This document shows positions 15,205 through 64,000 of a stretch of 64,000 nucleotides of DNA, piece after piece; the first letter of the stretch is position 1; each line of letters starts with the position of its first letter. The stretch comes from Candidatus Ruthturnera sp. Tsphm01. GTDB lineage: Bacteria > Pseudomonadota > Gammaproteobacteria > PS1 > Pseudothioglobaceae. The notes beneath the pieces were generated by a model. That model searched no databases. It saw nothing but the letters and a program-made list of their open reading frames with translations, and had not been told where the DNA came from. The position numbers and the translations under genes were made by a program. The stretch is from NCBI GenBank assembly GCA_030142985.1, contig CP125320.1, forward strand, positions 129,639-193,638, written 5' to 3'.

Positions 15205-16002
15205 TTAAATAGCCTCAAGTAGCTTTCTTGGTGGAATACCACCAATCGAACTATGAGGTCGTTCGTTATTATATACCCACATCCATTGTGTTGCTAACGA
15301 TTGAGCGTGCTCAATCGAATCAAAAATATGCATATTCAACCATTCGTTTCTTGCTGTTCTGTTAAATCTTTCTATATAGGCATTTTGGGTTGGTTTGCCT
15401 GGTTGTATATACATAAGCTCAATATCCATTGCTTGTGCCCATTCTCTGAGTATATGAGATATATATTCTGGACCATTATCACATCTGATGGCTTTGGGTT
15501 TGCTACGCCATTGAATAAGTTGCTCTAATGATTGAATCACTCGTTGTGCTGGTAATGAGTGGTCTATTTCAATGCTTAGACACTCTCTGTTGTAATCATC
15601 AATCACATTAAAGGTTCTAATTTTTCTACCTGTATTTAAAGAGTCTGACATAAAATCCATTGACCAAATTTGATTGATTGTCATTGGTACGCTTAAAGCT
15701 TGTGGCTTATCGCGTTTGATTCTTCTTCTAGGCTTAATCCTAAGATTGAGTTCTAGTTGCCTGTAAATACGATACACACGCTTGTGATTCCACCTAAAAC
15801 CTTTTATGTTACGTAAATACATAAAGCACAATCCAAATCCCCATTGCTTGTGTGTTGTGGTTAATCGCAATAACCAATCAGCAATTAGCTCATTCTCGGA
15901 TGATAACTTTGGCTCGTACCGATAACATGTCTCGCTGATCTTAAAAGCCTGGCAAGCTAATCGTGCTGTTACTCTGTGTTTATTGATACTCTGCTTGACC
16001 AT
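15205..16002 (-). CDS. IS3-family transposase OrfB (integrase core)
   Basis: 265 residues: an N-terminal HTH_21-like segment (WLLRLTTTHKQWGFG) and an rve integrase core with the DDE residues in WSMDFMSD, IRCDNGPEY and NAYIERFNRT, ending NNERPHSSIGG. In this family the active OrfAB is made by -1 frameshifting from orfA; orfB lies in another frame than orfA, as expected. The frame looks intact. Confidence 0.9.
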   Translation of the reverse strand: MVKQSINKHRVTARLACQAFKISETCYRYEPKLSSENELIADWLLRLTTTHKQWGFGLCFMYLRNIKGFRWNHKRVYRIYRQLELNLRIKPRRRIKRDKPQALSVPMTINQIWSMDFMSDSLNTGRKIRTFNVIDDYNRECLSIEIDHSLPAQRVIQSLEQLIQWRSKPKAIRCDNGPEYISHILREWAQAMDIELMYIQPGKPTQNAYIERFNRTARNEWLNMHIFDSIEHAQSLATQWMWVYNNERPHSSIGGIPPRKLLEAI

Positions 16003-17201: not shown

Positions 17202-18466
17202 AGACCTTTGCATAAATCAACTAAAAACCCAACAATCTAGTAAAATAACACCCATCTAAAAACAACTTTAAAAATATCAAAAATGTCTTGGAAAAACACC
17301 CAACAAAACTCATTTGCAGATTCTCTTGTTGTAGATCACAAATCCCTATCAGAACTTGATGATGTACACAACATCATCAACTGGAACGAGATAAAACAAA
17401 CACTTTCGAACTTGTATTCTTCTATTAGGGGTGCACCCAGTTATCCGCCACTGATAATGTTTAAAATCCTAATCCTTCAAGCTTGGTACGGTCTAAGTGA
17501 TGAGGCGCTAGAAAAGCAAATTGCCAGAGATTTAATGTTCAGACGTTTTATTGATTTGTCTTTGTCTGAAAATGTGCCTGATCATTCTAGCATTTGGCGT
17601 TTCAGGCAACTACTCAGCACCGAGAAATTACTAGCGCCTCTACTAGAGCAAATCAATACCCATCTTGAACAAAATTCAATCATTGTTTCCTTGGGTTCAA
17701 TCAACATCATTGATGCCACCGTTATAGAAGCCAAACAATCACGCAAGCGTAAAGGCAAGGATGGCAACAACACTCAAGATAAAGAGGCAAAATACAATGT
17801 CAAAATAGCAGCCGATGGCAAACGTAAAACCACCTATGGTTTTAAGATGCACGCCAATACCGATGAAGATGGTTTTGTTAAGAAAATGACTTACACTCCA
17901 GGTAATGTACACGACTCACAAGAGTTTGATAAATTATTAGAGGTAGAACGCACTAACAGTAAAATAAAAACATGTGGACAAGTCTATGCTGATAGCGCTT
18001 ATGCCAATAAAAACAATGATGAAAAACTAGGCAAAGAAAATAATAAAATATTGCACCGTGCCTACAGAAACAAGCCTTTAACCAAGCAACAGAAACAAGA
18101 GAATAAACAACGCTCATCCATTCGCTATATTGTTGAGCACACTTTTGGACTACTTAAGCTTCATCACGGATTAGCCAAGGCAAGATACCTTGGACTAGAA
18201 AGAAACAAAACCAGAGCGCAACTAATTGCCATGAGTCACAACCTTAAAACTGGAATGAACATTTTTAAACAGATGCGAGACTTGCAGGATTGTTGCGTCC
18301 AATGAGTGGCAAAAGGGTAAAAATAGAAAAATGTGGCGATGAAAACTCGGATAAGCAAGATGTTTTTTAGGTTTTTATAGAAAAATAGGGAAAATTTTGA
18401 AAATATTTTTGAAAAATTGTAAAAGTTGAAATTAGGATGGGAAATTATGAATTATTCAAAGGTCTC
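17201..18466 (+). mobile_element. IS5-family insertion sequence, full-length copy
   Basis: 1266 bp with imperfect terminal inverted repeats (GAGACCTTTGCATAA left, GAGACCTTTGAATAA on the right read inward) and one complete transposase. The left neighbour is a truncated paiB and the right neighbour is the bamE 3' end, which takes its stop codon from the IS. No matching target duplication is visible (CTTA left, CTAA right). Confidence 0.9.
17283..18305 (+). CDS. IS5-family transposase
   Basis: 340 residues, intact. N-terminal IS5-type domain (PSYPPLIMFKILILQAWYG, then VPDHSSIWRFRQLL), followed by a DDE domain with IIDATVIEAKQ, QVYADSAYANK and RSSIRYIVEHTFGLLK. The ATG at 17283 gives the expected family start. 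The second copy at 48573 differs by only a few residues (for example VEH here, VER there), so this copy may have altered activity at the position next to the catalytic Glu. Confidence 0.93.
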   Translation: MSWKNTQQNSFADSLVVDHKSLSELDDVHNIINWNEIKQTLSNLYSSIRGAPSYPPLIMFKILILQAWYGLSDEALEKQIARDLMFRRFIDLSLSENVPDHSSIWRFRQLLSTEKLLAPLLEQINTHLEQNSIIVSLGSINIIDATVIEAKQSRKRKGKDGNNTQDKEAKYNVKIAADGKRKTTYGFKMHANTDEDGFVKKMTYTPGNVHDSQEFDKLLEVERTNSKIKTCGQVYADSAYANKNNDEKLGKENNKILHRAYRNKPLTKQQKQENKQRSSIRYIVEHTFGLLKLHHGLAKARYLGLERNKTRAQLIAMSHNLKTGMNIFKQMRDLQDCCVQ

Positions 18467-48409: not shown

Positions 48410-49627
48410 GAGACCTTTGCATAAATCAACTAAAAACCCAACAATCTAGTAAAATAACACCCAACAAAACTCATTTGCAGATTCTCTTGTTGTAGATCAC
48501 AAATCCCTATCAGAACTTGATGATGTACATAACATCATCAACTGGAACGAGATAGAACAAACACTTTCGAACTTGTATTCTTCTATTAGGGGTGCACCCA
48601 GTTATCCGCCACTGATAATGTTTAAAATCCTAATCCTTCAAGCTTGGTACGGTCTAAGTGATGAGGCGCTAGAAAAGCAAATTGCCAGAGATTTAATGTT
48701 CAGACGTTTTATTGATTTGTCTTTGTCTGAAAATGTGCCTGATCATTCTAGCATTTGGCGTTTCAGGCAACTACTCAGCACCGAGAAATTACTAGCGCCT
48801 CTACTAGAGCAAATCAATACCCATCTTGAACAAAATTCAATCATTGTTTCCTTGGGTTCAATCAACATCATTGATGCCACCGTTATAGAAGCCAAACAAT
48901 CACGCAAGCGTAAAGGCAAGGATGGCAACAACACTCAAGACAAAGAGGCAAAATACAATGTCAAAATAGCAGCCGATGGCAAACGTAAAACCACCTATGG
49001 TTTTAAGATGCACGCCAATACCGATGAAGATGGTTTTGTTAAGAAAATGACTTACACTCCAGGTAATGTACACGACTCACAAGAGTTTGATAAATTATTA
49101 GAGGTAGAACGCACTAACAGTAAAATAAAAACATGTGGACAAGTCTATGCTGATAGCGCTTATGCCAATAAAAACAATGATGAAAAACTAGGCAAAGAAA
49201 ATAATAAAATATTGCACCGTGCCTACAGAAACAAGCCTTTAACCAAGCAACAGAAACAAGAGAATAAACAACGCTCATCCATTCGCTATATTGTTGAGCG
49301 CACTTTTGGACTACTTAAGCTTCATCACGGATTAGCCAAGGCAAGATACCTTGGACTAGAAAGAAACAAAACCAGAGCGCAACTAATTGCCATGAGTCAC
49401 AACCTTAAAACTGGAATGAGCATTTTTAAACAGATGCGAGACTTACAGGATTGTTGCGTCCAATGAGTGGCAAAAGGGTAAAAATAGAAAAATGTGGCGA
49501 TGAAAACTCAGATAAGCAAGATGTTTTTTAGGTTTTTATAGAAAAATAGGGAAAATTTTGAAAATATTTTTGAAAAATTGTAAAAGTTGAAATTAGGATG
49601 GGGAATTATGAATTACGCAAAGGTCTC
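48410..49627 (+). mobile_element. IS5-family insertion sequence, deletion copy
   Basis: 1218 bp, nearly identical to the copy at 17201-18466 but lacking 48 bp. The loss lies between two AACACCCA repeats (17247-17254 and 17295-17302 in the full copy), leaving one. Both terminal repeats (GAGACCTTTGC tips) are present, so it could still be moved in trans. Flanks (ATGT left, ACAA right) show no clear target duplication. Confidence 0.9.
48462..49466 (+). pseudogene. IS5-family transposase lacking its start
   Basis: The frame matches the intact transposase from its eighth codon on, but the ATG and the ribosome-site region were removed by the 48-bp deletion, and an in-frame TAA lies just upstream. 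The first remaining start-like codon is TTG at 48573, giving 297 residues without the N-terminal 43. The rest, with VYADSAYANK and IVERTFGLLK, is intact. Probably little or no product. Confidence 0.8.
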
Positions 49628-49660: not shown

Positions 49661-49731
49661 TAAATATATTGTTTACAATCAACACACTCAATCATAAATG
49701 AATTGTTTACAATTAACTACTAAATTATAAA
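49661..49731 (+). promoter_or_regulatory. Upstream region of the adhesin gene with twin 12-bp boxes
   Basis: ATTGTTTACAAT occurs twice, at 49668-49679 and 49702-49713, 34 bp apart. The first is also the right half of an inverted repeat TGTAAA/TTTACA (49660-49677). TTGTTT (49703-49708) and TATAAA (49726-49731) with a 17-bp gap form a possible promoter over the second box. The arrangement suggests a regulator-controlled promoter. Confidence 0.45.
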
Positions 49732-49747
49732 ATAAATTGGAAAAAAC

Positions 49748-52700
49748 ATGAAAGCCAATAACGCACAAACACCTACACAATTAAAAGCATTACAAGCCAA
49801 GGCGCAAGTTCTTTCTCAAACTTTAAACAAAGAAGTTATTGTTGTCACTAAAGGTGAACAACACGTTAAAGTTAAGCCAGGTTATGCCTACGAACTAAGC
49901 ATCAAAGATGGTGAAATTTTAATTAAAGATTTTGATTTAATTGCTAAAAAAGTAGGTGAAGATTTAGAAGTGTTACTACCTAATGACACTAGTGTTGTGT
50001 TTGATGGATATTTTGAAGTGTGTGCAAGTGATTTATCTTGTTTAGTGTCTTTACCAAGTGAAGGTGGTATGTATCATGTGCTAGAAGGTAACTTTGTAGT
50101 TCTGGCTGACGGTTCGGAAATCGTTCATTTTTATGGCGATGAAACTGCACTATTAGCTATCTCTAACAATCAACCTATGCTTTTTTCTGAAAGTTTTAGC
50201 GAGGTTTATCTCTCTGGAGGTTTTTCACCATTGACATTAATAAGCGGTTTGTCAATAGCAGAGTTGACAGGTTCAGGAGGTTCTGCTACAACCATATATT
50301 TAAGCATTGATAGTTTAATAACTAATGACCTAACCCCAATTATAACAGGCACAGCCATACTCGCTAATGGTGAAACCTTAAGCGTAAGTGTTAATGGGGC
50401 AACCTATAACATTGTTAATGGGGCAACCTATAACAATGTGCAGGTGATAGACAATGTTTGGTCAATTGACACGAAAACAGCAATACCTTCATCAGGAACA
50501 TTAGGAACTTTTGTAGATGGACAAAGTTATGAAGTTGTTGCAACCGTAACAGACGCGGCTGGCAATATCATAAGAAGCGATAACTCAAACAATGAGTTGA
50601 CTATTGATACTACAGCCCCAGGCGCTCCAACCATCAACACAGTATCAAATGATAACCTTATCAATGCAGCTGAGAACGCAGCAGGTTTTGATCTAACTGG
50701 TACAGGTGAAGCTGGCAGTACTATTATTGTTTCAGGATTTGAAACTGGTGTGGCTGACAAATGGACACTCGTTGCTGCAGATGGCACTTGGTCAATTGCA
50801 ATTGTTGATACAGATTTAGCTGATAATGGCTCAAATACTTTAACAGCAACACAAACAGACTCAGTAGGCAACACAAGCCCTGCTGCAACTATAACAATCA
50901 CCACAGATTTAATTGCACCAACAACCCCAAGCGTTGATAGTCTAACAACTAATGATTTAACCCCAACTATAACAGGTACAGCCACACTAACTAATGGTGA
51001 AACCTTAAGCGTAAGTGTTAATGGTGCAATCTATGACAATGTAGAGGTGATAGGCAATGCTTGGTCAATTGACACAGAAACAAAAACACCTTCATCAGGA
51101 GTATTGGGAGCATTTGTAGATGGACAAAGCTATGATATTGTTGCAACCGTAACAGACGTAGCTGGCAATAGTGCAAGCGATAACTCAATCAATGAGTTGA
51201 CTATTGATAATACAGCCTCAAACGCTCCAACCATTGACTCAGTCTCAAATGATGACCTTATCAATGCAGCTGAGAACGCAGCAGGTTTTAATCTAACTGG
51301 TACAGGTGAAGTTGGTAGTACTATTATTGTTTCAGGATTTGAAACTGGTGTGGCTGACAAAACAACAAGCGTTGCTGAAGATGGCACTTGGTCAATTGCA
51401 ATTGTTGATGCAGATTTGGCTGATAATGGCTCAAATACTTTAACAGCAACACAAACAGACTCAGTAGGCAACACAAGCCCTGCTGCAACTAGAACAATCA
51501 CCATAGATTTAATTGCACCAACAACCCCAAGCGTTGATAGTCTAACAACTAATGATTTAACCCCAACTATAACAGGTACAGCCACACTAACTAATGGTGA
51601 AACCTTAAGCGTAAGTGTTAATGGTGCAATCTATGACAATGTAGAGGTGATAGGCAATGCTTGGTCAATTGACACAGAAACAAAAACACCTTCATCAGGA
51701 GTATTGGGAGCATTTGTAGATGGACAAAGCTATGATATTGTTGCAACCGTAACAGACGTAGCTGGCAATAGTGCAAGCGATAACTCAATCAATGAGTTGA
51801 CTATTGATAATACAGCCTCAAACGCTCCAACCATTGACTCAGTCTCAAATGATGACCTTATCAATGCAGCTGAGAACGCAGCAGGTTTTAATCTAACTGG
51901 TACAGGTGAAGTTGGTAGTACTATTATTGTTTCAGGATTTGAAACTGGTGTGGCTGACAAAACAACAAGCGTTGCTGTAGATGGCACTTGGTCAATTGCA
52001 ATTGTTGATGCAGATTTGGCTGATAATGGCTCAAATACTTTAACAGCAACACAAACAGACTCAGTAGGCAACACAAGCCCTGCTGCAACTAGAACAATCA
52101 CCATAGATTTAATTGCACCAACAACCCCAAGCGTTGATAGTCTAACAACTAATGATTTAACCCCAACTATAACAGGTACAGCCACACTAACTAATGGTGA
52201 AACCTTAAGCGTAAGTGTTAATGGTGCAATCTATGACAATGTAGAGGTGATAGGCAATGCTTGGTCAATTGACACAGAAACAAAAACACCTTCATCAGGA
52301 GTATTGGGAGCATTTGTAGATGGACAAAGCTATGATATTGTTGCAACCGTAACAGACGTAGCTGGCAATAGTGCAAGCGATAACTCAATCAATGAGTTGA
52401 CTATTGATAATACAGCCTCAAACGCTCCAACCATTGACTCAGTCTCAAATGATGACCTTATCAATGCAGCTGAGAACGCAGCAGGTTTTAATCTAACTGG
52501 TACAGGTGAAGTTGGTAGTACTATTATTGTTTCAGGATTTGAAACTGGTGTGGCTGACAAAACAACAAGCGTTGCTGTAGATGGCACTTGGTCAATTGCA
52601 ATTGTTGATGCAGATTTGGCTGATAATGGCTCAAATACTTTAACAGCAACACAAACAGACTCAGTAGGCAACACAAGCCCTGCTGCAACTAGAACAATCA

Positions 52701-55700
52701 CCATAGATTTAATTGCACCAACAACCCCAAGCGTTGATAGTCTAACAACTAATGATTTAACCCCAACTATAACAGGTACAGCCACACTAACTAATGGTGA
52801 AACCTTAAGCGTAAGTGTTAATGGTGCAATCTATGACAATGTAGAGGTGATAGGCAATGCTTGGTCAATTGACACAGAAACAAAAACACCTTCATCAGGA
52901 GTATTGGGAGCATTTGTAGATGGACAAAGCTATGATATTGTTGCAACCGTAACAGACGTAGCTGGCAATAGTGCAAGCGATAACTCAATCAATGAGTTGA
53001 CTATTGATAATACAGCCTCAAACGCTCCAACCATTGACTCAGTCTCAAATGATGACCTTATCAATGCAGCTGAGAACGCAGCAGGTTTTAATCTAACTGG
53101 TACAGGTGAAGTTGGTGATTTTATTACTGTTTCAGGATTTGAAGCTGGTGTGGCTGACAAAACAACAAGCGTTGCTGAAGATGGCACTTGGTCAATTGCA
53201 ATTGTTGATACAGATTTAGCTGATAATGGCTCAAATACTTTAACAGCAACACAAACAGACTCAGTAGGCAACACAAGCCCTGCTGCAACTAGAACAATCA
53301 CCACAGATTTAATTGCACCAACAACCCCAAGCGTTGATAGTCTAACAACTAATGATTTAACCCCAACTATAACAGGTACAGCCACACTAACTAATGGTGA
53401 AACCTTAAGCGTAAGTGTTAATGGTGCAATCTATGACAATGTAGAGGTGATAGGCAATGCTTGGTCAATTGACACAGAAACAAAAACACCTTCATCAGGA
53501 GTATTGGGAGCATTTGTAGATGGACAAAGCTATGATATTGTTGCAACCGTAACAGACGTAGCTGGCAATAGTGCAAGCGATAACTCAATCAATGAGTTGA
53601 CTATTGATAATACAGCCTCAAACGCTCCAACCATTGACTCAGTCTCAAATGATGACCTTATCAATGCAGCTGAGAACGCAGCAGGTTTTAATCTAACTGG
53701 TACAGGTGAAGTTGGTGATTTTATTACTGTTTCAGGATTTGAAGCTGGTGTGGCTGACAAAACAACAAGCGTTGCTGAAGATGGCACTTGGTCAATTGCA
53801 ATTGTTGATACAGATTTAGCTGATAATGGCTCAAATACTTTAACAGCAACACAAACAGACTCAGTAGGCAACACAAGCCCTGCTGCAACTAGAACAATCA
53901 CCACAGATTTAATTGCACCAACAACCCCAAGCGTTGATAGTCTAACAACTAATGATTTAACCCCAACTATAACAGGTACAGCCACACTAACTAATGGTGA
54001 AACCTTAAGCGTAAGTGTTAATGGTGCAATCTATGACAATGTAGAAGTGACAGGCAATGCTTGGTCAATTGACACAGAAACAAAAACACCTTCATCAGGA
54101 GTATTGGGAGCATTTGTAGATGGACAAAGCTATGATATTGTTGCAACCGTAACAGACGTAGCTGGCAATAGTGCAAGCGATAACTCAATCAATGAGTTGA
54201 CTATTGATAATACAGCCTCAAACGCTCCAACCATTGACTCAGTCTCAAATGATGACCTTATCAATGCAGCTGAGAACGCAGCAGGTTTTAATCTAACTGG
54301 TACAGGTGAAGTTGGTGATTTTATTACTGTTTCAGGATTTGAAGCTGGTGTGGCTGACAAAACAACAAGCGTTGCTGAAGATGGCACTTGGTCAATTGCA
54401 ATTGTTGATACAGATTTAGCTGATAATGGCTCAAATACTTTAACAGCAACACAAACAGACTCAGTAGGCAACACAAGCCCTGCTGCAACTAGAACAATCA
54501 CCACAGATTTAATTGCACCAACAACCCCAAGCGTTGATAGTCTAACAACTAATGATTTAACCCCAACTATAACAGGTACAGCCACACTAACTAATGGTGA
54601 AACCTTAAGCGTAAGTGTTAATGGTGCAATCTATGACAATGTAGAGGTGATAGGCAATGCTTGGTCAATTGACACAGAAACAAAAACACCTTCATCAGGA
54701 GTATTGGGAGCATTTGTAGATGGACAAAGCTATGATATTGTTGCAACCGTAACAGACGTAGCTGGCAATAGTGCAAGCGATAACTCAATCAATGAGTTGA
54801 CTATTGATAATACAGCCTCAAACGCTCCAACCATTGACTCAGTCTCAAATGATGACCTTATCAATGCAGCTGAGAACGCAGCAGGTTTTAATCTAACTGG
54901 TACAGGTGAAGTTGGTGATTTTATTACTGTTTCAGGATTTGAAGCTGGTGTGGCTGACAAAACAACAAGCGTTGCTGAAGATGGCACTTGGTCAATTGCA
55001 ATTGTTGATACAGATTTAGCTGATAATGGCTCAAATACTTTAACAGCAACACAAACAGACTCAGTAGGCAACACAAGCCCTGCTGCAACTAGAACAATCA
55101 CCACAGATTTAATTGCACCAACAACCCCAAGCGTTGATAGTCTAACAACTAATGATTTAACCCCAACTATAACAGGTACAGCCACACTAACTAATGGTGA
55201 AACCTTAAGCGTAAGTGTTAATGGTGCAATCTATGACAATGTAGAGGTGATAGGCAATGCTTGGTCAATTGACACAGAAACAAAAACACCTTCATCAGGA
55301 GTATTGGGAGCATTTGTAGATGGACAAAGCTATGATATTGTTGCAACCGTAACAGACGTAGCTGGCAATAGTGCAAGCGATAACTCAATCAATGAGTTGA
55401 CTATTGATAATACAGCCTCAAACGCTCCAACCATTGACTCAGTCTCAAATGATGACCTTATCAATGCAGCTGAGAACGCAGCAGGTTTTAATCTAACTGG
55501 TACAGGTGAAGTTGGTGATTTTATTACTGTTTCAGGATTTGAAGCTGGTGTGGCTGACAAAACAACAAGCGTTGCTGAAGATGGCACTTGGTCAATTGCA
55601 ATTGTTGATACAGATTTAGCTGATAATGGCTCAAATACTTTAACAGCAACACAAACAGACTCAGTAGGCAACACAAGCCCTGCTGCAACTAGAACAATCA

Positions 55701-58700
55701 CCACAGATTTAATTGCACCAACAACCCCAAGCGTTGATAGTCTAACAACTAATGATTTAACCCCAACTATAACAGGTACAGCCACACTAACTAATGGTGA
55801 AACCTTAAGCGTAAGTGTTAATGGTGCAATCTATGACAATGTAGAGGTGATAGGCAATGCTTGGTCAATTGACACAGAAACAAAAACACCTTCATCAGGA
55901 GTATTGGGAGCATTTGTAGATGGACAAAGCTATGATATTGTTGCAACCGTAACAGACGTAGCTGGCAATAGTGCAAGCGATAACTCAATCAATGAGTTGA
56001 CTATTGATAATACAGCCTCAAACGCTCCAACCATTGACTCAGTCTCAAATGATGACCTTATCAATGCAGCTGAGAACGCAGCAGGTTTTAATCTAACTGG
56101 TACAGGTGAAGTTGGTGATTTTATTACTGTTTCAGGATTTGAAGCTGGTGTGGCTGACAAAACAACAAGCGTTGCTGAAGATGGCACTTGGTCAATTGCA
56201 ATTGTTGATACAGATTTAGCTGATAATGGCTCAAATACTTTAACAGCAACACAAACAGACTCAGTAGGCAACACAAGCCCTGCTGCAACTAGAACAATCA
56301 CCACAGATTTAATTGCACCAACAACCCCAAGCGTTGATAGTCTAACAACTAATGATTTAACCCCAACTATAACAGGTACAGCCACACTAACTAATGGTGA
56401 AACCTTAAGCGTAAGTGTTAATGGTGCAATCTATGACAATGTAGAGGTGATAGGCAATGCTTGGTCAATTGACACAGAAACAAAAACACCTTCATCAGGA
56501 GTATTGGGAGCATTTGTAGATGGACAAAGCTATGATATTGTTGCAACCGTAACAGACGTAGCTGGCAATAGTGCAAGCGATAACTCAATCAATGAGTTGA
56601 CTATTGATAATACAGCCTCAAACGCTCCAACCATTGACTCAGTCTCAAATGATGACCTTATCAATGCAGCTGAGAACGCAGCAGGTTTTAATCTAACTGG
56701 TACAGGTGAAGTTGGTGATTTTATTACTGTTTCAGGATTTGAAGCTGGTGTGGCTGACAAAACAACAAGCGTTGCTGAAGATGGCACTTGGTCAATTGCA
56801 ATTGTTGATACAGATTTAGCTGATAATGGCTCAAATACTTTAACAGCAACACAAACAGACTCAGTAGGCAACACAAGCCCTGCTGCAACTAGAACAATCA
56901 CCACAGATTTAATTGCACCAACAACCCCAAGCGTTGATAGTCTAACAACTAATGATTTAACCCCAACTATAACAGGTACAGCCACACTAACTAATGGTGA
57001 AACCTTAAGCGTAAGTGTTAATGGTGCAATCTATGACAATGTAGAGGTGATAGGCAATGCTTGGTCAATTGACACAGAAACAAAAACACCTTCATCAGGA
57101 GTATTGGGAGCATTTGTAGATGGACAAAGCTATGATATTGTTGCAACCGTAACAGACGTAGCTGGCAATAGTGCAAGCGATAACTCAATCAATGAGTTGA
57201 CTATTGATAATACAGCCTCAAACGCTCCAACCATTGACTCAGTCTCAAATGATGACCTTATCAATGCAGCTGAGAACGCAGCAGGTTTTAATCTAACTGG
57301 TACAGGTGAAGTTGGTGATTTTATTACTGTTTCAGGATTTGAAGCTGGTGTGGCTGACAAAACAACAAGCGTTGCTGAAGATGGCACTTGGTCAATTGCA
57401 ATTGTTGATACAGATTTAGCTGATAATGGCTCAAATACTTTAACAGCAACACAAACAGACTCAGTAGGCAACACAAGCCCTGCTGCAACTAGAACAATCA
57501 CCACAGATTTAATTGCACCAACAACCCCAAGCGTTGATAGTCTAACAACTAATGATTTAACCCCAACTATAACAGGTACAGCCACACTAACTAATGGTGA
57601 AACCTTAAGCGTAAGTGTTAATGGTGCAATCTATGACAATGTAGAGGTGATAGGCAATGCTTGGTCAATTGACACAGAAACAAAAACACCTTCATCAGGA
57701 GTATTGGGAGCATTTGTAGATGGACAAAGCTATGATATTGTTGCAACCGTAACAGACGTAGCTGGCAATAGTGCAAGCGATAACTCAATCAATGAGTTGA
57801 CTATTGATAATACAGCCTCAAACGCTCCAACCATTGACTCAGTCTCAAATGATGACCTTATCAATGCAGCTGAGAACGCAGCAGGTTTTAATCTAACTGG
57901 TACAGGTGAAGTTGGTGATTTTATTACTGTTTCAGGATTTGAAGCTGGTGTGGCTGACAAAACAACAAGCGTTGCTGAAGATGGCACTTGGTCAATTGCA
58001 ATTGTTGATACAGATTTAGCTGATAATGGCTCAAATACTTTAACAGCAACACAAACAGACTCAGTAGGCAACACAAGCCCTGCTGCAACTAGAACAATCA
58101 CCACAGATTTAATTGCACCAACAACCCCAAGCGTTGATAGTCTAACAACTAATGATTTAACCCCAACTATAACAGGTACAGCCACACTAACTAATGGTGA
58201 AACCTTAAGCGTAAGTGTTAATGGTGCAATCTATGACAATGTAGAGGTGATAGGCAATGCTTGGTCAATTGACACAGAAACAAAAACACCTTCATCAGGA
58301 GTATTGGGAGCATTTGTAGATGGACAAAGCTATGATATTGTTGCAACCGTAACAGACGTAGCTGGCAATAGTGCAAGCGATAACTCAATCAATGAGTTGA
58401 CTATTGATAATACAGCCTCAAACGCTCCAACCATTGACTCAGTCTCAAATGATGACCTTATCAATGCAGCTGAGAACGCAGCAGGTTTTAATCTAACTGG
58501 TACAGGTGAAGTTGGTGATTTTATTACTGTTTCAGGATTTGAAACTGGTGTGGCTGACAAAACAACAAGCGTTGCTGTAGATGGCACTTGGTCAATTGCA
58601 ATTGTTGATGCAGATTTGGCTGATAATGGCTCAAATACTTTAACAGCAACACAAACAGACTCAGTAGGCAACACAAGCCCTGCTGCAACTAGAACAATCA

Positions 58701-61700
58701 CCATAGATTTAATTGCACCAACAACCCCAAGCGTTGATAGTCTAACAACTAATGATTTAACCCCAACTATAACAGGTACAGCCACACTAACTAATGGTGA
58801 AACCTTAAGCGTAAGTGTTAATGGTGCAATCTATGACAATGTAGAAGTGACAGGCAATGCTTGGTCAATTGACACAGAAACAAAAACACCTTCATCAGGA
58901 GTATTGGGAGCATTTGTAGATGGACAAAGCTATGATATTGTTGCAACCGTAACAGACGTAGCTGGCAATAGTGCAAGCGATAACTCAATCAATGAGTTGA
59001 CTATTGATAATACAGCCTCAAACGCTCCAACCATTGACTCAGTCTCAAATGATGACCTTATCAATGCAGCTGAGAACGCAGCAGGTTTTAATCTAACTGG
59101 TACAGGTGAAGTTGGTGATTTTATTACTGTTTCAGGATTTGAAGCTGGTGTGGCTGACAAAACAACAAGCGTTGCTGAAGATGGCACTTGGTCAATTGCA
59201 ATTGTTGATACAGATTTAGCTGATAATGGCTCAAATACTTTAACAGCAACACAAACAGACTCAGTAGGCAACACAAGCCCTGCTGCAACTAGAACAATCA
59301 CCACAGATTTAATTGCACCAACAACCCCAAGCGTTGATAGTCTAACAACTAATGATTTAACCCCAACTATAACAGGTACAGCCACACTAACTAATGGTGA
59401 AACCTTAAGCGTAAGTGTTAATGGTGCAATCTATGACAATGTAGAGGTGATAGGCAATGCTTGGTCAATTGACACAGAAACAAAAACACCTTCATCAGGA
59501 GTATTGGGAGCATTTGTAGATGGACAAAGCTATGATATTGTTGCAACCGTAACAGACGTAGCTGGCAATAGTGCAAGCGATAACTCAATCAATGAGTTGA
59601 CTATTGATAATACAGCCTCAAACGCTCCAACCATTGACTCAGTCTCAAATGATGACCTTATCAATGCAGCTGAGAACGCAGCAGGTTTTAATCTAACTGG
59701 TACAGGTGAAGTTGGTGATTTTATTACTGTTTCAGGATTTGAAGCTGGTGTGGCTGACAAAACAACAAGCGTTGCTGAAGATGGCACTTGGTCAATTGCA
59801 ATTGTTGATACAGATTTAGCTGATAATGGCTCAAATACTTTAACAGCAACACAAACAGACTCAGTAGGCAACACAAGCCCTGCTGCAACTAGAACAATCA
59901 CCACAGATTTAATTGCACCAACAACCCCAAGCGTTGATAGTCTAACAACTAATGATTTAACCCCAACTATAACAGGTACAGCCACACTAACTAATGGTGA
60001 AACCTTAAGCGTAAGTGTTAATGGTGCAATCTATGACAATGTAGAGGTGATAGGCAATGCTTGGTCAATTGACACAGAAACAAAAACACCTTCATCAGGA
60101 GTATTGGGAGCATTTGTAGATGGACAAAGCTATGATATTGTTGCAACCGTAACAGACGTAGCTGGCAATAGTGCAAGCGATAACTCAATCAATGAGTTGA
60201 CTATTGATAATACAGCCTCAAACGCTCCAACCATTGACTCAGTCTCAAATGATGACCTTATCAATGCAGCTGAGAACGCAGCAGGTTTTAATCTAACTGG
60301 TACAGGTGAAGTTGGTGATTTTATTACTGTTTCAGGATTTGAAGCTGGTGTGGCTGACAAAACAACAAGCGTTGCTGAAGATGGCACTTGGTCAATTGCA
60401 ATTGTTGATACAGATTTAGCTGATAATGGCTCAAATACTTTAACAGCAACACAAACAGACTCAGTAGGCAACACAAGCCCTGCTGCAACTAGAACAATCA
60501 CCACAGATTTAATTGCACCAACAACCCCAAGCGTTGATAGTCTAACAACTAATGATTTAACCCCAACTATAACAGGTACAGCCACACTAACTAATGGTGA
60601 AACCTTAAGCGTAAGTGTTAATGGTGCAATCTATGACAATGTAGAGGTGATAGGCAATGCTTGGTCAATTGACACAGAAACAAAAACACCTTCATCAGGA
60701 GTATTGGGAGCATTTGTAGATGGACAAAGCTATGATATTGTTGCAACCGTAACAGACGTAGCTGGCAATAGTGCAAGCGATAACTCAATCAATGAGTTGA
60801 CTATTGATAATACAGCCTCAAACGCTCCAACCATTGACTCAGTCTCAAATGATGACCTTATCAATGCAGCTGAGAACGCAGCAGGTTTTAATCTAACTGG
60901 TACAGGTGAAGTTGGTGATTTTATTACTGTTTCAGGATTTGAAGCTGGTGTGGCTGACAAAACAACAAGCGTTGCTGAAGATGGCACTTGGTCAATTGCA
61001 ATTGTTGATACAGATTTAGCTGATAATGGCTCAAATACTTTAACAGCAACACAAACAGACTCAGTAGGCAACACAAGCCCTGCTGCAACTAGAACAATCA
61101 CCACAGATTTAATTGCACCAACAACCCCAAGCGTTGATAGTCTAACAACTAATGATTTAACCCCAACTATAACAGGTACAGCCACACTAACTAATGGTGA
61201 AACCTTAAGCGTAAGTGTTAATGGTGCAATCTATGACAATGTAGAGGTGATAGGCAATGCTTGGTCAATTGACACAGAAACAAAAACACCTTCATCAGGA
61301 GTATTGGGAGCATTTGTAGATGGACAAAGCTATGATATTGTTGCAACCGTAACAGACGTAGCTGGCAATAGTGCAAGCGATAACTCAATCAATGAGTTGA
61401 CTATTGATAATACAGCCTCAAACGCTCCAACCATTGACTCAGTCTCAAATGATGACCTTATCAATGCAGCTGAGAACGCAGCAGGTTTTAATCTAACTGG
61501 TACAGGTGAAGTTGGTGATTTTATTACTGTTTCAGGATTTGAAGCTGGTGTGGCTGACAAAACAACAAGCGTTGCTGAAGATGGCACTTGGTCAATTGCA
61601 ATTGTTGATACAGATTTAGCTGATAATGGCTCAAATACTTTAACAGCAACACAAACAGACTCAGTAGGCAACACAAGCCCTGCTGCAACTAGAACAATCA

Positions 61701-64000
61701 CCACAGATTTAATTGCACCAACAACCCCAAGCGTTGATAGTCTAACAACTAATGATTTAACCCCAACTATAACAGGTACAGCCACACTAACTAATGGTGA
61801 AACCTTAAGCGTAAGTGTTAATGGTGCAATCTATGACAATGTAGAGGTGATAGGCAATGCTTGGTCAATTGACACAGAAACAAAAACACCTTCATCAGGA
61901 GTATTGGGAGCATTTGTAGATGGACAAAGCTATGATATTGTTGCAACCGTAACAGACGTAGCTGGCAATAGTGCAAGCGATAACTCAATCAATGAGTTGA
62001 CTATTGATAATACAGCCTCAAACGCTCCAACCATTGACTCAGTCTCAAATGATGACCTTATCAATGCAGCTGAGAACGCAGCAGGTTTTAATCTAACTGG
62101 TACAGGTGAAGTTGGTGATTTTATTACTGTTTCAGGATTTGAAGCTGGTGTGGCTGACAAAACAACAAGCGTTGCTGAAGATGGCACTTGGTCAATTGCA
62201 ATTGTTGATACAGATTTAGCTGATAATGGCTCAAATACTTTAACAGCAACACAAACAGACTCAGTAGGCAACACAAGCCCTGCTGCAACTAGAACAATCA
62301 CCACAGATTTAATTGCACCAACAACCCCAAGCGTTGATAGTCTAACAACTAATGATTTAACCCCAACTATAACAGGTACAGCCACACTAACTAATGGTGA
62401 AACCTTAAGCGTAAGTGTTAATGGTGCAATCTATGACAATGTAGAGGTGATAGGCAATGCTTGGTCAATTGACACAGAAACAAAAACACCTTCATCAGGA
62501 GTATTGGGAGCATTTGTAGATGGACAAAGCTATGATATTGTTGCAACCGTAACAGACGTAGCTGGCAATAGTGCAAGCGATAACTCAATCAATGAGTTGA
62601 CTATTGATAATACAGCCTCAAACGCTCCAACCATTGACTCAGTCTCAAATGATGACCTTATCAATGCAGCTGAGAACGCAGCAGGTTTTAATCTAACTGG
62701 TACAGGTGAAGTTGGTGATTTTATTACTGTTTCAGGATTTGAAGCTGGTGTGGCTGACAAAACAACAAGCGTTGCTGAAGATGGCACTTGGTCAATTGCA
62801 ATTGTTGATACAGATTTAGCTGATAATGGCTCAAATACTTTAACAGCAACACAAACAGACTCAGTAGGCAACACAAGCCCTGCTGCAACTAGAACAATCA
62901 CCACAGATTTAATTGCACCAACAACCCCAAGCGTTGATAGTCTAACAACTAATGATTTAACCCCAACTATAACAGGTACAGCCACACTAACTAATGGTGA
63001 AACCTTAAGCGTAAGTGTTAATGGTGCAATCTATGACAATGTAGAGGTGATAGGCAATGCTTGGTCAATTGACACAGAAACAAAAACACCTTCATCAGGA
63101 GTATTGGGAGCATTTGTAGATGGACAAAGCTATGATATTGTTGCAACCGTAACAGACGTAGCTGGCAATAGTGCAAGCGATAACTCAATCAATGAGTTGA
63201 CTATTGATAATACAGCCTCAAACGCTCCAACCATTGACTCAGTCTCAAATGATGACCTTATCAATGCAGCTGAGAACGCAGCAGGTTTTAATCTAACTGG
63301 TACAGGTGAAGTTGGTGATTTTATTACTGTTTCAGGATTTGAAGCTGGTGTGGCTGACAAAACAACAAGCGTTGCTGAAGATGGCACTTGGTCAATTGCA
63401 ATTGTTGATACAGATTTAGCTGATAATGGCTCAAATACTTTAACAGCAACACAAACAGACTCAGTAGGCAACACAAGCCCTGCTGCAACTAGAACAATCA
63501 CCACAGATTTAATTGCACCAACAACCCCAAGCGTTGATAGTCTAACAACTAATGATTTAACCCCAACTATAACAGGTACAGCCACACTAACTAATGGTGA
63601 AACCTTAAGCGTAAGTGTTAATGGTGCAATCTATGACAATGTAGAGGTGATAGGCAATGCTTGGTCAATTGACACAGAAACAAAAACACCTTCATCAGGA
63701 GTATTGGGAGCATTTGTAGATGGACAAAGCTATGATATTGTTGCAACCGTAACAGACGTAGCTGGCAATAGTGCAAGCGATAACTCAATCAATGAGTTGA
63801 CTATTGATAATACAGCCTCAAACGCTCCAACCATTGACTCAGTCTCAAATGATGACCTTATCAATGCAGCTGAGAACGCAGCAGGTTTTAATCTAACTGG
63901 TACAGGTGAAGTTGGTGATTTTATTACTGTTTCAGGATTTGAAACTGGTGTGGCTGACAAAACAACAAGCGTTGCTGTAGATGGCACTTGGTCAATTGCA
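49748..64000 (+). CDS. Giant Ig-like repeat surface adhesin (type I secretion type), 3' end outside window
   Basis: Open from the ATG at 49748 to the edge: 4751 codons without a stop. Residues 1-185 form a non-repeated N-terminus without a Sec signal (VLSQTLNKEVIVVTKGEQ, then KPGYAYELSIKDGEILIKDF), like the BapA/LapA-type prefix of type-I-secreted adhesins. Then come 200-residue units, each with two Ig-like domains: one around TGTATLTNGETLSVSVNGA to VATVTDVAGN, one around NLTGTGEVGS to LTATQTDSVGNTSPAA. The repeats seen contain no Cys and are rich in Asp, Asn and Thr. The secretion signal, expected C-terminally, is not visible. Likely attachment to host or surfaces. Confidence 0.88.
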   Translation, partial: MKANNAQTPTQLKALQAKAQVLSQTLNKEVIVVTKGEQHVKVKPGYAYELSIKDGEILIKDFDLIAKKVGEDLEVLLPNDTSVVFDGYFEVCASDLSCLVSLPSEGGMYHVLEGNFVVLADGSEIVHFYGDETALLAISNNQPMLFSESFSEVYLSGGFSPLTLISGLSIAELTGSGGSATTIYLSIDSLITNDLTPIITGTAILANGETLSVSVNGATYNIVNGATYNNVQVIDNVWSIDTKTAIPSSGTLGTFVDGQSYEVVATVTDAAGNIIRSDNSNNELTIDTTAPGAPTINTVSNDNLINAAENAAGFDLTGTGEAGSTIIVSGFETGVADKWTLVAADGTWSIAIVDTDLADNGSNTLTATQTDSVGNTSPAATITITTDLIAPTTPSVDSLTTNDLTPTITGTATLTNGETLSVSVNGAIYDNVEVIGNAWSIDTETKTPSSGVLGAFVDGQSYDIVATVTDVAGNSASDNSINELTIDNTASNAPTIDSVSNDDLINAAENAAGFNLTGTGEVGSTIIVSGFETGVADKTTSVAEDGTWSIAIVDADLADNGSNTLTATQTDSVGNTSPAATRTITIDLIAPTTPSVDSLTTNDLTPTITGTATLTNGETLSVSVNGAIYDNVEVIGNAWSIDTETKTPSSGVLGAFVDGQSYDIVATVTDVAGNSASDNSINELTIDNTASNAPTIDSVSNDDLINAAENAAGFNLTGTGEVGSTIIVSGFETGVADKTTSVAVDGTWSIAIVDADLADNGSNTLTATQTDSVGNTSPAATRTITIDLIAPTTPSVDSLTTNDLTPTITGTATLTNGETLSVSVNGAIYDNVEVIGNAWSIDTETKTPSSGVLGAFVDGQSYDIVATVTDVAGNSASDNSINELTIDNTASNAPTIDSVSNDDLINAAENAAGFNLTGTGEVGSTIIVSGFETGVADKTTSVAVDGTWSIAIVDADLADNGSNTLTATQTDSVGNTSPAATRTITIDLIAPTTPSVDSLTTNDLTPTITGTATLTNGETLSVSVNGAIYDNVEVIGNAWSIDTETKTPSSGVLGAFVDGQSYDIVATVTDVAGNSASDNSINELTIDNTASNAPTIDSVSNDDLINAAENAAGFNLTGTGEVGDFITVSGFEAGVADKTTSVAEDGTWSIAIVDTDLADNGSNTLTATQTDSVGNTSPAATRTITTDLIAPTTPSVDSLTTNDLTPTITGTATLTNGETLSVSVNGAIYDNVEVIGNAWSIDTETKTPSSGVLGAFVDGQSYDIVATVTDVAGNSASDNSINELTIDNTASNAPTIDSVSNDDLINAAENAAGFNLTGTGEVGDFITVSGFEAGVADKTTSVAEDGTWSIAIVDTDLADNGSNTLTATQTDSVGNTSPAATRTITTDLIAPTTPSVDSLTTNDLTPTITGTATLTNGETLSVSVNGAIYDNVEVTGNAWSIDTETKTPSSGVLGAFVDGQSYDIVATVTDVAGNSASDNSINELTIDNTASNAPTIDSVSNDDLINAAENAAGFNLTGTGEVGDFITVSGFEAGVADKTTSVAEDGTWSIAIVDTDLADNGSNTLTATQTDSVGNTSPAATRTITTDLIAPTTPSVDSLTTNDLTPTITGTATLTNGETLSVSVNGAIYDNVEVIGNAWSIDTETKTPSSGVLGAFVDGQSYDIVATVTDVAGNSASDNSINELTIDNTASNAPTIDSVSNDDLINAAENAAGFNLTGTGEVGDFITVSGFEAGVADKTTSVAEDGTWSIAIVDTDLADNGSNTLTATQTDSVGNTSPAATRTITTDLIAPTTPSVDSLTTNDLTPTITGTATLTNGETLSVSVNGAIYDNVEVIGNAWSIDTETKTPSSGVLGAFVDGQSYDIVATVTDVAGNSASDNSINELTIDNTASNAPTIDSVSNDDLINAAENAAGFNLTGTGEVGDFITVSGFEAGVADKTTSVAEDGTWSIAIVDTDLADNGSNTLTATQTDSVGNTSPAATRTITTDLIAPTTPSVDSLTTNDLTPTITGTATLTNGETLSVSVNGAIYDNVEVIGNAWSIDTETKTPSSGVLGAFVDGQSYDIVATVTDVAGNSASDNSINELTIDNTASNAPTIDSVSNDDLINAAENAAGFNLTGTGEVGDFITVSGFEAGVADKTTSVAEDGTWSIAIVDTDLADNGSNTLTATQTDSVGNTSPAATRTITTDLIAPTTPSVDSLTTNDLTPTITGTATLTNGETLSVSVNGAIYDNVEVIGNAWSIDTETKTPSSGVLGAFVDGQSYDIVATVTDVAGNSASDNSINELTIDNTASNAPTIDSVSNDDLINAAENAAGFNLTGTGEVGDFITVSGFEAGVADKTTSVAEDGTWSIAIVDTDLADNGSNTLTATQTDSVGNTSPAATRTITTDLIAPTTPSVDSLTTNDLTPTITGTATLTNGETLSVSVNGAIYDNVEVIGNAWSIDTETKTPSSGVLGAFVDGQSYDIVATVTDVAGNSASDNSINELTIDNTASNAPTIDSVSNDDLINAAENAAGFNLTGTGEVGDFITVSGFEAGVADKTTSVAEDGTWSIAIVDTDLADNGSNTLTATQTDSVGNTSPAATRTITTDLIAPTTPSVDSLTTNDLTPTITGTATLTNGETLSVSVNGAIYDNVEVIGNAWSIDTETKTPSSGVLGAFVDGQSYDIVATVTDVAGNSASDNSINELTIDNTASNAPTIDSVSNDDLINAAENAAGFNLTGTGEVGDFITVSGFEAGVADKTTSVAEDGTWSIAIVDTDLADNGSNTLTATQTDSVGNTSPAATRTITTDLIAPTTPSVDSLTTNDLTPTITGTATLTNGETLSVSVNGAIYDNVEVIGNAWSIDTETKTPSSGVLGAFVDGQSYDIVATVTDVAGNSASDNSINELTIDNTASNAPTIDSVSNDDLINAAENAAGFNLTGTGEVGDFITVSGFETGVADKTTSVAVDGTWSIAIVDADLADNGSNTLTATQTDSVGNTSPAATRTITIDLIAPTTPSVDSLTTNDLTPTITGTATLTNGETLSVSVNGAIYDNVEVTGNAWSIDTETKTPSSGVLGAFVDGQSYDIVATVTDVAGNSASDNSINELTIDNTASNAPTIDSVSNDDLINAAENAAGFNLTGTGEVGDFITVSGFEAGVADKTTSVAEDGTWSIAIVDTDLADNGSNTLTATQTDSVGNTSPAATRTITTDLIAPTTPSVDSLTTNDLTPTITGTATLTNGETLSVSVNGAIYDNVEVIGNAWSIDTETKTPSSGVLGAFVDGQSYDIVATVTDVAGNSASDNSINELTIDNTASNAPTIDSVSNDDLINAAENAAGFNLTGTGEVGDFITVSGFEAGVADKTTSVAEDGTWSIAIVDTDLADNGSNTLTATQTDSVGNTSPAATRTITTDLIAPTTPSVDSLTTNDLTPTITGTATLTNGETLSVSVNGAIYDNVEVIGNAWSIDTETKTPSSGVLGAFVDGQSYDIVATVTDVAGNSASDNSINELTIDNTASNAPTIDSVSNDDLINAAENAAGFNLTGTGEVGDFITVSGFEAGVADKTTSVAEDGTWSIAIVDTDLADNGSNTLTATQTDSVGNTSPAATRTITTDLIAPTTPSVDSLTTNDLTPTITGTATLTNGETLSVSVNGAIYDNVEVIGNAWSIDTETKTPSSGVLGAFVDGQSYDIVATVTDVAGNSASDNSINELTIDNTASNAPTIDSVSNDDLINAAENAAGFNLTGTGEVGDFITVSGFEAGVADKTTSVAEDGTWSIAIVDTDLADNGSNTLTATQTDSVGNTSPAATRTITTDLIAPTTPSVDSLTTNDLTPTITGTATLTNGETLSVSVNGAIYDNVEVIGNAWSIDTETKTPSSGVLGAFVDGQSYDIVATVTDVAGNSASDNSINELTIDNTASNAPTIDSVSNDDLINAAENAAGFNLTGTGEVGDFITVSGFEAGVADKTTSVAEDGTWSIAIVDTDLADNGSNTLTATQTDSVGNTSPAATRTITTDLIAPTTPSVDSLTTNDLTPTITGTATLTNGETLSVSVNGAIYDNVEVIGNAWSIDTETKTPSSGVLGAFVDGQSYDIVATVTDVAGNSASDNSINELTIDNTASNAPTIDSVSNDDLINAAENAAGFNLTGTGEVGDFITVSGFEAGVADKTTSVAEDGTWSIAIVDTDLADNGSNTLTATQTDSVGNTSPAATRTITTDLIAPTTPSVDSLTTNDLTPTITGTATLTNGETLSVSVNGAIYDNVEVIGNAWSIDTETKTPSSGVLGAFVDGQSYDIVATVTDVAGNSASDNSINELTIDNTASNAPTIDSVSNDDLINAAENAAGFNLTGTGEVGDFITVSGFEAGVADKTTSVAEDGTWSIAIVDTDLADNGSNTLTATQTDSVGNTSPAATRTITTDLIAPTTPSVDSLTTNDLTPTITGTATLTNGETLSVSVNGAIYDNVEVIGNAWSIDTETKTPSSGVLGAFVDGQSYDIVATVTDVAGNSASDNSINELTIDNTASNAPTIDSVSNDDLINAAENAAGFNLTGTGEVGDFITVSGFEAGVADKTTSVAEDGTWSIAIVDTDLADNGSNTLTATQTDSVGNTSPAATRTITTDLIAPTTPSVDSLTTNDLTPTITGTATLTNGETLSVSVNGAIYDNVEVIGNAWSIDTETKTPSSGVLGAFVDGQSYDIVATVTDVAGNSASDNSINELTIDNTASNAPTIDSVSNDDLINAAENAAGFNLTGTGEVGDFITVSGFETGVADKTTSVAVDGTWSIA
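50303..50929 (+). repeat. First, divergent unit of the adhesin repeat
   Basis: 627 bp corresponding to one 600-bp unit plus a 24-bp internal tandem duplication (encoding VNGATYN twice) and one extra codon. It differs from the later units at many bases, as expected for an edge unit that escapes homogenisation. Confidence 0.85.
50930..64000 (+). repeat. 600-bp tandem repeat array inside the adhesin gene
   Basis: 21 complete units of exactly 600 bp (starts 50930, 51530 and so on to 62930) and a partial unit from 63530 to the edge, with no indels between units. Two main versions exist: type A (units at 50930, 51530, 52130; codons for GSTIIVSGFETG) and type B (most others; GDFITVSGFEAG). Units at 58130 and 63530 are B/A mosaics. 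Most B units look identical over their full length. Confidence 0.95.

Follow-up and report, generated by a model that had tools for sequence, protein, structure and literature searches.

A candidate giant type I-secreted adhesin with a near-identical 600-bp repeat array in a small symbiont genome

A symbiont genome whose closest named relative is Ca. Ruthia encodes a protein of 13,434 amino acids (gene A; 1.37 MDa, pI 4.05, 14 cysteines), which we regard, with a probability of about 0.8, as a type I-secreted, surface-held giant adhesin whose arm was recently lengthened by a 600-bp unit. The genome is closed (one contig of 1,523,273 bp), and the stretch of DNA analysed here, termed the window, comprises 64,000 nucleotides (C1:129639-193638) and contains the 5' third of the gene only, the complete gene A being located at C1:179386-219690. 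The symbiont nature of the genome and the giant adhesin architecture had both been proposed in an initial annotation made from the letters of the window; the former is supported by the kinship with Ca. Ruthia and the latter by an Ig-like extender combined with a C-terminal type I secretion signal.

The gene A array and its double-domain unit

Gene A and its upstream region comprise the following features (coordinates of the window):

48573 to 49466, plus strand: IS5-family transposase of 297 amino acids, just 5' of gene A (NF033581, 233 bits; cut-off 140)
49661 to 49739, plus strand: tandem repeat of period 34 (TRF), 5' of gene A, with two copies of ATTGTTTACAATNAAC at 49668-49683 and 49702-49717
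49748 to 64000, plus strand: 5' part of giant gene A, which runs on to C1:219690 of the genome
49748 to 50257, plus strand: N-terminal domain (~150-170 aa), a putative, clade-specific module for surface retention or anchoring
50321 to 50947, plus strand: first Ig-like pair, divergent (residues 192-400)
50948 to 63547, plus strand: 21 full 600-bp (200-aa) double-domain units, 15 of them DNA-identical (Ca_tandemer NF033510, Big_13, Big_6, PDB 4p99)
63548 to 64000, plus strand: 22nd unit, partial, cut at the window edge

The single uninterrupted frame of at least 4,751 codons described initially is indeed open from position 49748 to the edge of the window. A stop shortly beyond this edge, without any secretion signal, would have spoken against a giant secreted protein; gene A instead ends at C1:219690 with a TIGR03661 domain. 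Beyond the window follow at least 17 more full units and a divergent higher-order array. A profile built from the gene's own units detects approximately 118 Ig-like domains between residue 192 and about residue 12,701, and the C-terminal ~1.3 kaa form a distal module, which includes a conserved tip of ~390 aa.

Exactly 21 full units are present in the window, as had been counted, together with one partial unit. The accompanying statement that units within type B appear identical holds for the majority type (15 of the 21), but not for the remaining six, which represent four interspersed variants. In the protein encoded by the frame within the window, self-identity reaches maxima only when the sequence is displaced by 200 or 400 aa (0.936 and 0.931, respectively). 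At the DNA level, an exact self-match with an offset of 600 bp extends over 8,212 bp, which is far beyond chance. Moreover, a higher-order block of 5.8 kb is repeated exactly within the gene.

The unit matches Ca_tandemer (NF033510), Big_13 and Big_6, and the solved structure closest to the unit by sequence is the RII tetra-tandemer of the ice adhesin MpAFP (4p99, E 5.9e-15). An AlphaFold2 model of the unit consists of two beta-sandwiches (pLDDT 81.7), and its top Foldseek matches are the extenders of MpAFP, Bap and SiiE (E 2e-9 to 4e-6). The second sandwich aligns with MpAFP RII (4kdv) at Z 12.0 over 93 residues and 1.9 A; since many eukaryotic Ig proteins come next in this structure comparison at Z 9-10, structural similarity taken by itself is generic, and more weight falls on the similarity in sequence. 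The Asp residues closing the two sandwiches are conserved in 103/104 and 104/104 units. For MpAFP, linker Ca2+ is bound by the terminal Asp of every repeat (PMC4083281), and linker Ca2+ is commonly found in solved RTX extenders (PMC7493085). The unit is predicted to comprise a pair of beta-sandwiches, and it is homologous to the MpAFP extender, which Ca2+ stiffens.

MpAFP (or MpIBP), the 1.5-MDa RTX ice adhesin of Marinomonas primoryensis (PDB 4p99, 5irb, 4kdv), resembles the gene A product in its ~120 tandem BIg domains identical at the DNA level (~118 domains in A), in type I secretion, predicted for A, and in a distal binding module, putative in A (PMC4083281). The linkers of MpAFP hold Ca2+, and the A unit is a homolog in sequence and modelled fold. 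The two proteins differ in that each MpAFP unit is one sandwich of 104 aa, whereas the A unit comprises two alternating sandwiches in 200 aa. In addition, the N-terminal domain of A is different, its family's tips lack a PDB sequence match, and three paralogous giants occur in one small symbiont genome.

Export and surface retention

The type I secretion signal that had been anticipated at the distal end is found at the extreme C-terminus of the gene A product, where TIGR03661 (T1SS_VCA0849) scores 41.8 bits; the same domain terminates the paralogs B (29.8), C (41.9) and D (30.0) introduced below, each above the cut-off of 17.6. The RTX nonapeptide (PF00353) is above its cut-off in B, below it in C and without a match in A. 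As to the HlyB/HlyD/TolC-type genes suspected in the neighbourhood, such genes are indeed encoded in the genome (one HlyD/ABC/TolC set, C1:547,984-553,566), but they are unlinked to gene A, though linked in three relatives. HlyD scores above its cut-off, and the LssB-like ABC protein (582 vs 693 bits) and the TolC-like protein (125 vs 225) fall below their curated cut-offs, both matching over most of the length of their models. Adjoining the exporter genes is a paralog of 1,313 aa (L030 13575-17516, minus strand), the N-terminal domain of which is 49% identical, and whose TIGR03661 match outscores all others of the genome. This paralog is intact here and shortened or degraded in three other genomes (G039, G040 and G042).

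Orthologs of A are considerably smaller in the three relatives G036 (2,664 aa), G037 (2,819 aa) and G042 (2,548 aa), and each of them lies 5' of tolC-ABC-hlyD in the same orientation. In G042 (Ca. Ruthia sp. Cpac_8_S14), the A ortholog and tolC are separated by a fragment of the 1,313-aa paralog. The ortholog of G037 (Ca. Ruthia magnifica; L087 2494-17870) is 60% identical to A in the N-terminal domain, 59% in the tip and 67% in the target domain. The ABC gene and a full N-terminal domain match occur in the same 7/12 genomes of the genus and are both missing in the same five, a pattern with a chance of 1/792 if the genomes were independent, a figure that common ancestry weakens. In G040 (L091 3979-14900), the ortholog is distributed over two frames (1,454 and 2,186 aa) that overlap; a frameshift, a sequencing error or a phase switch may underlie this.

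For R. magnifica, Newton et al. (2008, PMC2642828) reported the locus to encode a putative transporter of hemolysin, along with a calcium-binding hemolysin. It resembles A in N-terminal domain, tip and target domain, but differs in that its protein comprises 2.8 kaa, is encoded by a single copy and lacks the amplified 200-aa array. By its architecture, the “putative hemolysin” locus is predicted to encode an adhesin and its exporter.

The N-terminal domain (~150 aa) is found in 17/83 genomes of the family, distributed over three genera, one of which is represented by a single weak match, and in 4/369 genomes sampled across the class, all four of them in the same family. Pfam yielded no match to this domain, a PDB search gave chance-level matches only, and an AlphaFold2 model built from two sequences reached a pLDDT of 29.7, so that no fold is claimed. 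The BapA_N model (NF033677) weakly matches 3/17 relatives (best E 0.031), and does not match the gene A product. From its position in the protein, we infer that the domain retains the adhesin on the cell.

With SiiE-, BapA- and LapA-type adhesins secreted by type I systems, A shares an N-terminal region (with a putative retention function), a BIg extender and a C-terminal secretion signal. Unlike in the Lap system, the genome lacks a LapG-type protease (PF06035; the control was positive in Caulobacter), and a LapG-type di-alanine site ([TAP]AA[GVA]) is absent from the first 420 aa of A and from the N-terminal domains of the 17 relatives; nor is the domain recognised as BapA_N. A model of LapG-dependent release was rejected on these grounds, and retention would thus be permanent or differently regulated. 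Judged by homology of the unit, the exporter and the signal, A is assigned to the giant BIg adhesins of type I secretion systems. It is set apart by its clade-specific anchor, the missing Lap switch, the two-sandwich unit and the co-occurrence of three giants, the tips of which differ, in one small genome of a symbiont.

Taken together, the following mechanism is proposed. The TIGR03661 domain would lead export through the single LssB-type ABC/HlyD/TolC machinery, as suggested by the signal, by co-occurrence and by the linkage in relatives. Outside the cell, the ~118 beta-sandwiches may fold with Ca2+ in their linkers and form a stiff arm of ~0.5 micrometre, a length estimated from the number of domains. 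The N-terminal domain would probably remain lodged in the outer membrane or the TolC channel and thereby hold the protein on the cell. The distal 1.3 kaa with the ~390-aa tip would be exposed at the outer end of the arm and bind a ligand, which most likely resides either on tissue of the host or on further symbiont cells. A role of A in host attachment or host specificity may be envisaged accordingly with the initial annotation.

Paralogous giants and the origin of the arrays

Gene A is not alone in the genome, as the same N-terminus begins three further genes and is also found as a remnant:

C1:401621-441289: paralog B, 13,222 aa
C1:2957-30520: paralog C, 9,187 aa
C1:943257-939484: mini-paralog D, 1,257 aa
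C1:448,329: N-terminus remnant, 49 residues

The giants A, B and C account for 7.06% of the chromosome, and their open frames total 107 kb. Over the first 600 bp, A is 99.5% identical to B, 98.7% to D and 95.8% to C. The 5' flanks of A and C match in inverted orientation (98.6% over 1,178 bp), a related copy of the insertion sequence 5' of A is also located 5' of C, and the sequences 3' of B, C and D agree with one another at 98-99.5%. These near-identical 5' ends and flanks imply that the genes of the family arose by segmental copying; elements of the IS5 type occur in the vicinity of A, C and D. A protein of 133 aa is encoded 3' of both B and C (L014 11886-12287; L016 11117-11518) inside the duplicated flank, which is 99.5% identical over 1.5 kb. 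The window harbours additional IS3 and IS5 transposases at 15205-16002 and 17283-18305.

The period-34 repeat upstream of A sits within a 5' leader common to gene A and the paralogs B and D. Across the 1.52-Mb genome, the motif ATTGTTTACAATNAAC is present in five copies, two in the window and the others at C1:401574, 448282 and 943293, and each copy lies 30-80 bp 5' of a start or a remnant of the adhesin family. It may represent either a common regulatory site or merely a duplicated leader. A regulatory function of the period-34 leader region of gene A is possible; the promoter-like site at 49706-49733 is a consensus match only.

The distal parts differ among A, B and C. The distal module of A (1,324 aa) is 63% identical to that of the Ca. 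Ruthia Cpac ortholog. B and C carry ~58-aa repeats in sets of exactly eight, with one set in B (L014 7066-8463) and three in C (residues 6,866-9,060). No Pfam family matched these sets, which, judged by their repeat counts only, look like closed 8-bladed propellers. B and C also have a region of ~170 aa in common, the Pfam and PDB matches of which are at chance level, and the same applies to the Pfam and PDB sequence searches with the tip domains. Motifs had raised the suspicion that A bears an arabinofuranosidase/ConA-like tip and that B and C contain a domain resembling discoidin; the searches supported neither.

The notion of recent amplification and/or gene conversion, put forward from the window, is strengthened by the 29 DNA-identical units found across gene A and by exact blocks common to loci that are more than 140 kb apart (1,612 bp between A and B, 1,652 bp between A and C and 2,459 bp between B and C). 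No other genome of the family contains the 200-aa unit at more than 50% identity, and hence the amplification is particular to this lineage. At the junction just before the conserved distal module, Cpac has a single Ig region, ~33-35% identical to the unit, which likely represents the seed of the array. The recA gene is intact here, absent in four genomes of 1.0 Mb and present as a broken remnant in G037. Given the observed identities, unequal recombination would recently have extended the array by its 600-bp unit, and the three giant loci may exchange sequence by duplication or gene conversion; such a combination is the simple reading of the sequence data.

The genome of the relative G052 (2.83 Mb) yields 41 matches to the N-terminal domain, a large family, one of which belongs to a protein of 11,580 aa with a repeat period of its own of 551 aa (C1:488409-523151; L089, L090), and therefore giant forms evolved independently on no fewer than two occasions. 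With respect to genome share, the closest parallel is offered by the unrelated surface proteins Giant1-5 of the bee symbiont Apilactobacillus kunkeei, which occupy ~6% of a 1.5-Mb genome in one 90-kb cluster (PMC12863079). The A. kunkeei giants differ from the A family by their Gram-positive producer, a Sec signal, other folds and imperfect repeats.

Alternative readings and significance

Other accounts of the giant genes were weighed. A secreted RTX/MARTX-type toxin or “hemolysin” would use the same transporter and a Ca2+-binding C-terminus, and the R. magnifica locus was annotated in this sense in 2008 (PMC2642828). This is very improbable, however, given that no toxin, protease or MARTX-type domain is found in the N-terminal 600 aa or the distal 1.4 kaa of A, nor in the distal portions of the paralogs B and C, and that residues 192-12,001 of A constitute an Ig-like extender, which is the architecture of an adhesin. 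Pfam searches of these regions for MARTX effector, CPD and pore-forming domains were negative, and only Ig-like, RTX and Calx-beta-like domains scored above chance. More credible, although still clearly the lesser option, is a scaffold of the matrix or biofilm in the manner of Bap or LapA, which would connect symbiont cells or the surfaces of the bacteriocyte vacuole rather than recognise the host. The relatives Bap, BapA and MpAFP, with the same architecture, do serve in biofilm formation or substrate attachment, but the restriction of the N-terminal domain family to genera containing host-associated symbionts favours a host-related role without proving it.

The copy number itself might be an artefact of assembly, the true arrays being much shorter or longer, as one exact 600-bp tandem run corresponds to 8.2 kb plus one unit and exceeds many reads. 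Yet the reading frame is maintained all along, the variant units are scattered at irregular intervals, and A, B and C differ in their flanks, unit sets and C-termini; the interspersed variants and the locus differences imply that the genes are not one mis-assembly, and an artefact thus appears unlikely. Just as improbable as a toxin is the view that the arrays are decaying or selfish repeats, free of selection in a genome undergoing reduction. This view would account for a pN/pS of ~1.2 among the units (95% interval 0.78-2.04), a value near 1, on the basis of which diversifying selection on the units is not claimed either, and for the family remnants in relatives with smaller genomes. Against it, the 148 mutations in 46 near-identical unit variants (32 of them synonymous, 39 expected) include no nonsense change, where 3.7 are expected (P 0.024); moreover, the three giant frames are open over their entire 107 kb, and the distal module is conserved across species over 1.3 kaa. 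The frame is guarded, and the unit sequence is without visible constraint, with no sign of strong purifying selection on the extender.

Along with the preferred reading of a type I-secreted, surface-held adhesin with a recently lengthened arm, a more specific scenario may be tentatively considered, to which we give clearly less than even odds. An ancestral T1SS-linked adhesin of 2.5 kaa would have been copied to several loci and expanded to three megadalton arms with different tips, which RecA-dependent conversion would keep similar and a clade-specific anchor would hold, and this in a single species of a shrinking intracellular lineage that is otherwise losing the system. If true, this scenario would point to strong selection at present, acting on the reach of the arms or on the diversity of their ligands, be it for recognition of hosts or eggs or for the lateral transfer of symbionts.

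Reduced symbionts are expected to shed costly surface structures. To our knowledge, little has been learned about the adhesins of sulfur-oxidising symbionts of bivalves and about the factors by which they recognise their hosts. Here, three putative adhesins of ~1-1.4 MDa with common anchors and different tips fill 7% of the 1.5-Mb genome of a clam- or mussel-type sulfur symbiont. The near-identical arrays may constitute a natural, length-variable strain marker, and the R. magnifica locus, re-read as a short, ancestor-type form of the giants, becomes a testable candidate for symbiont-host binding.
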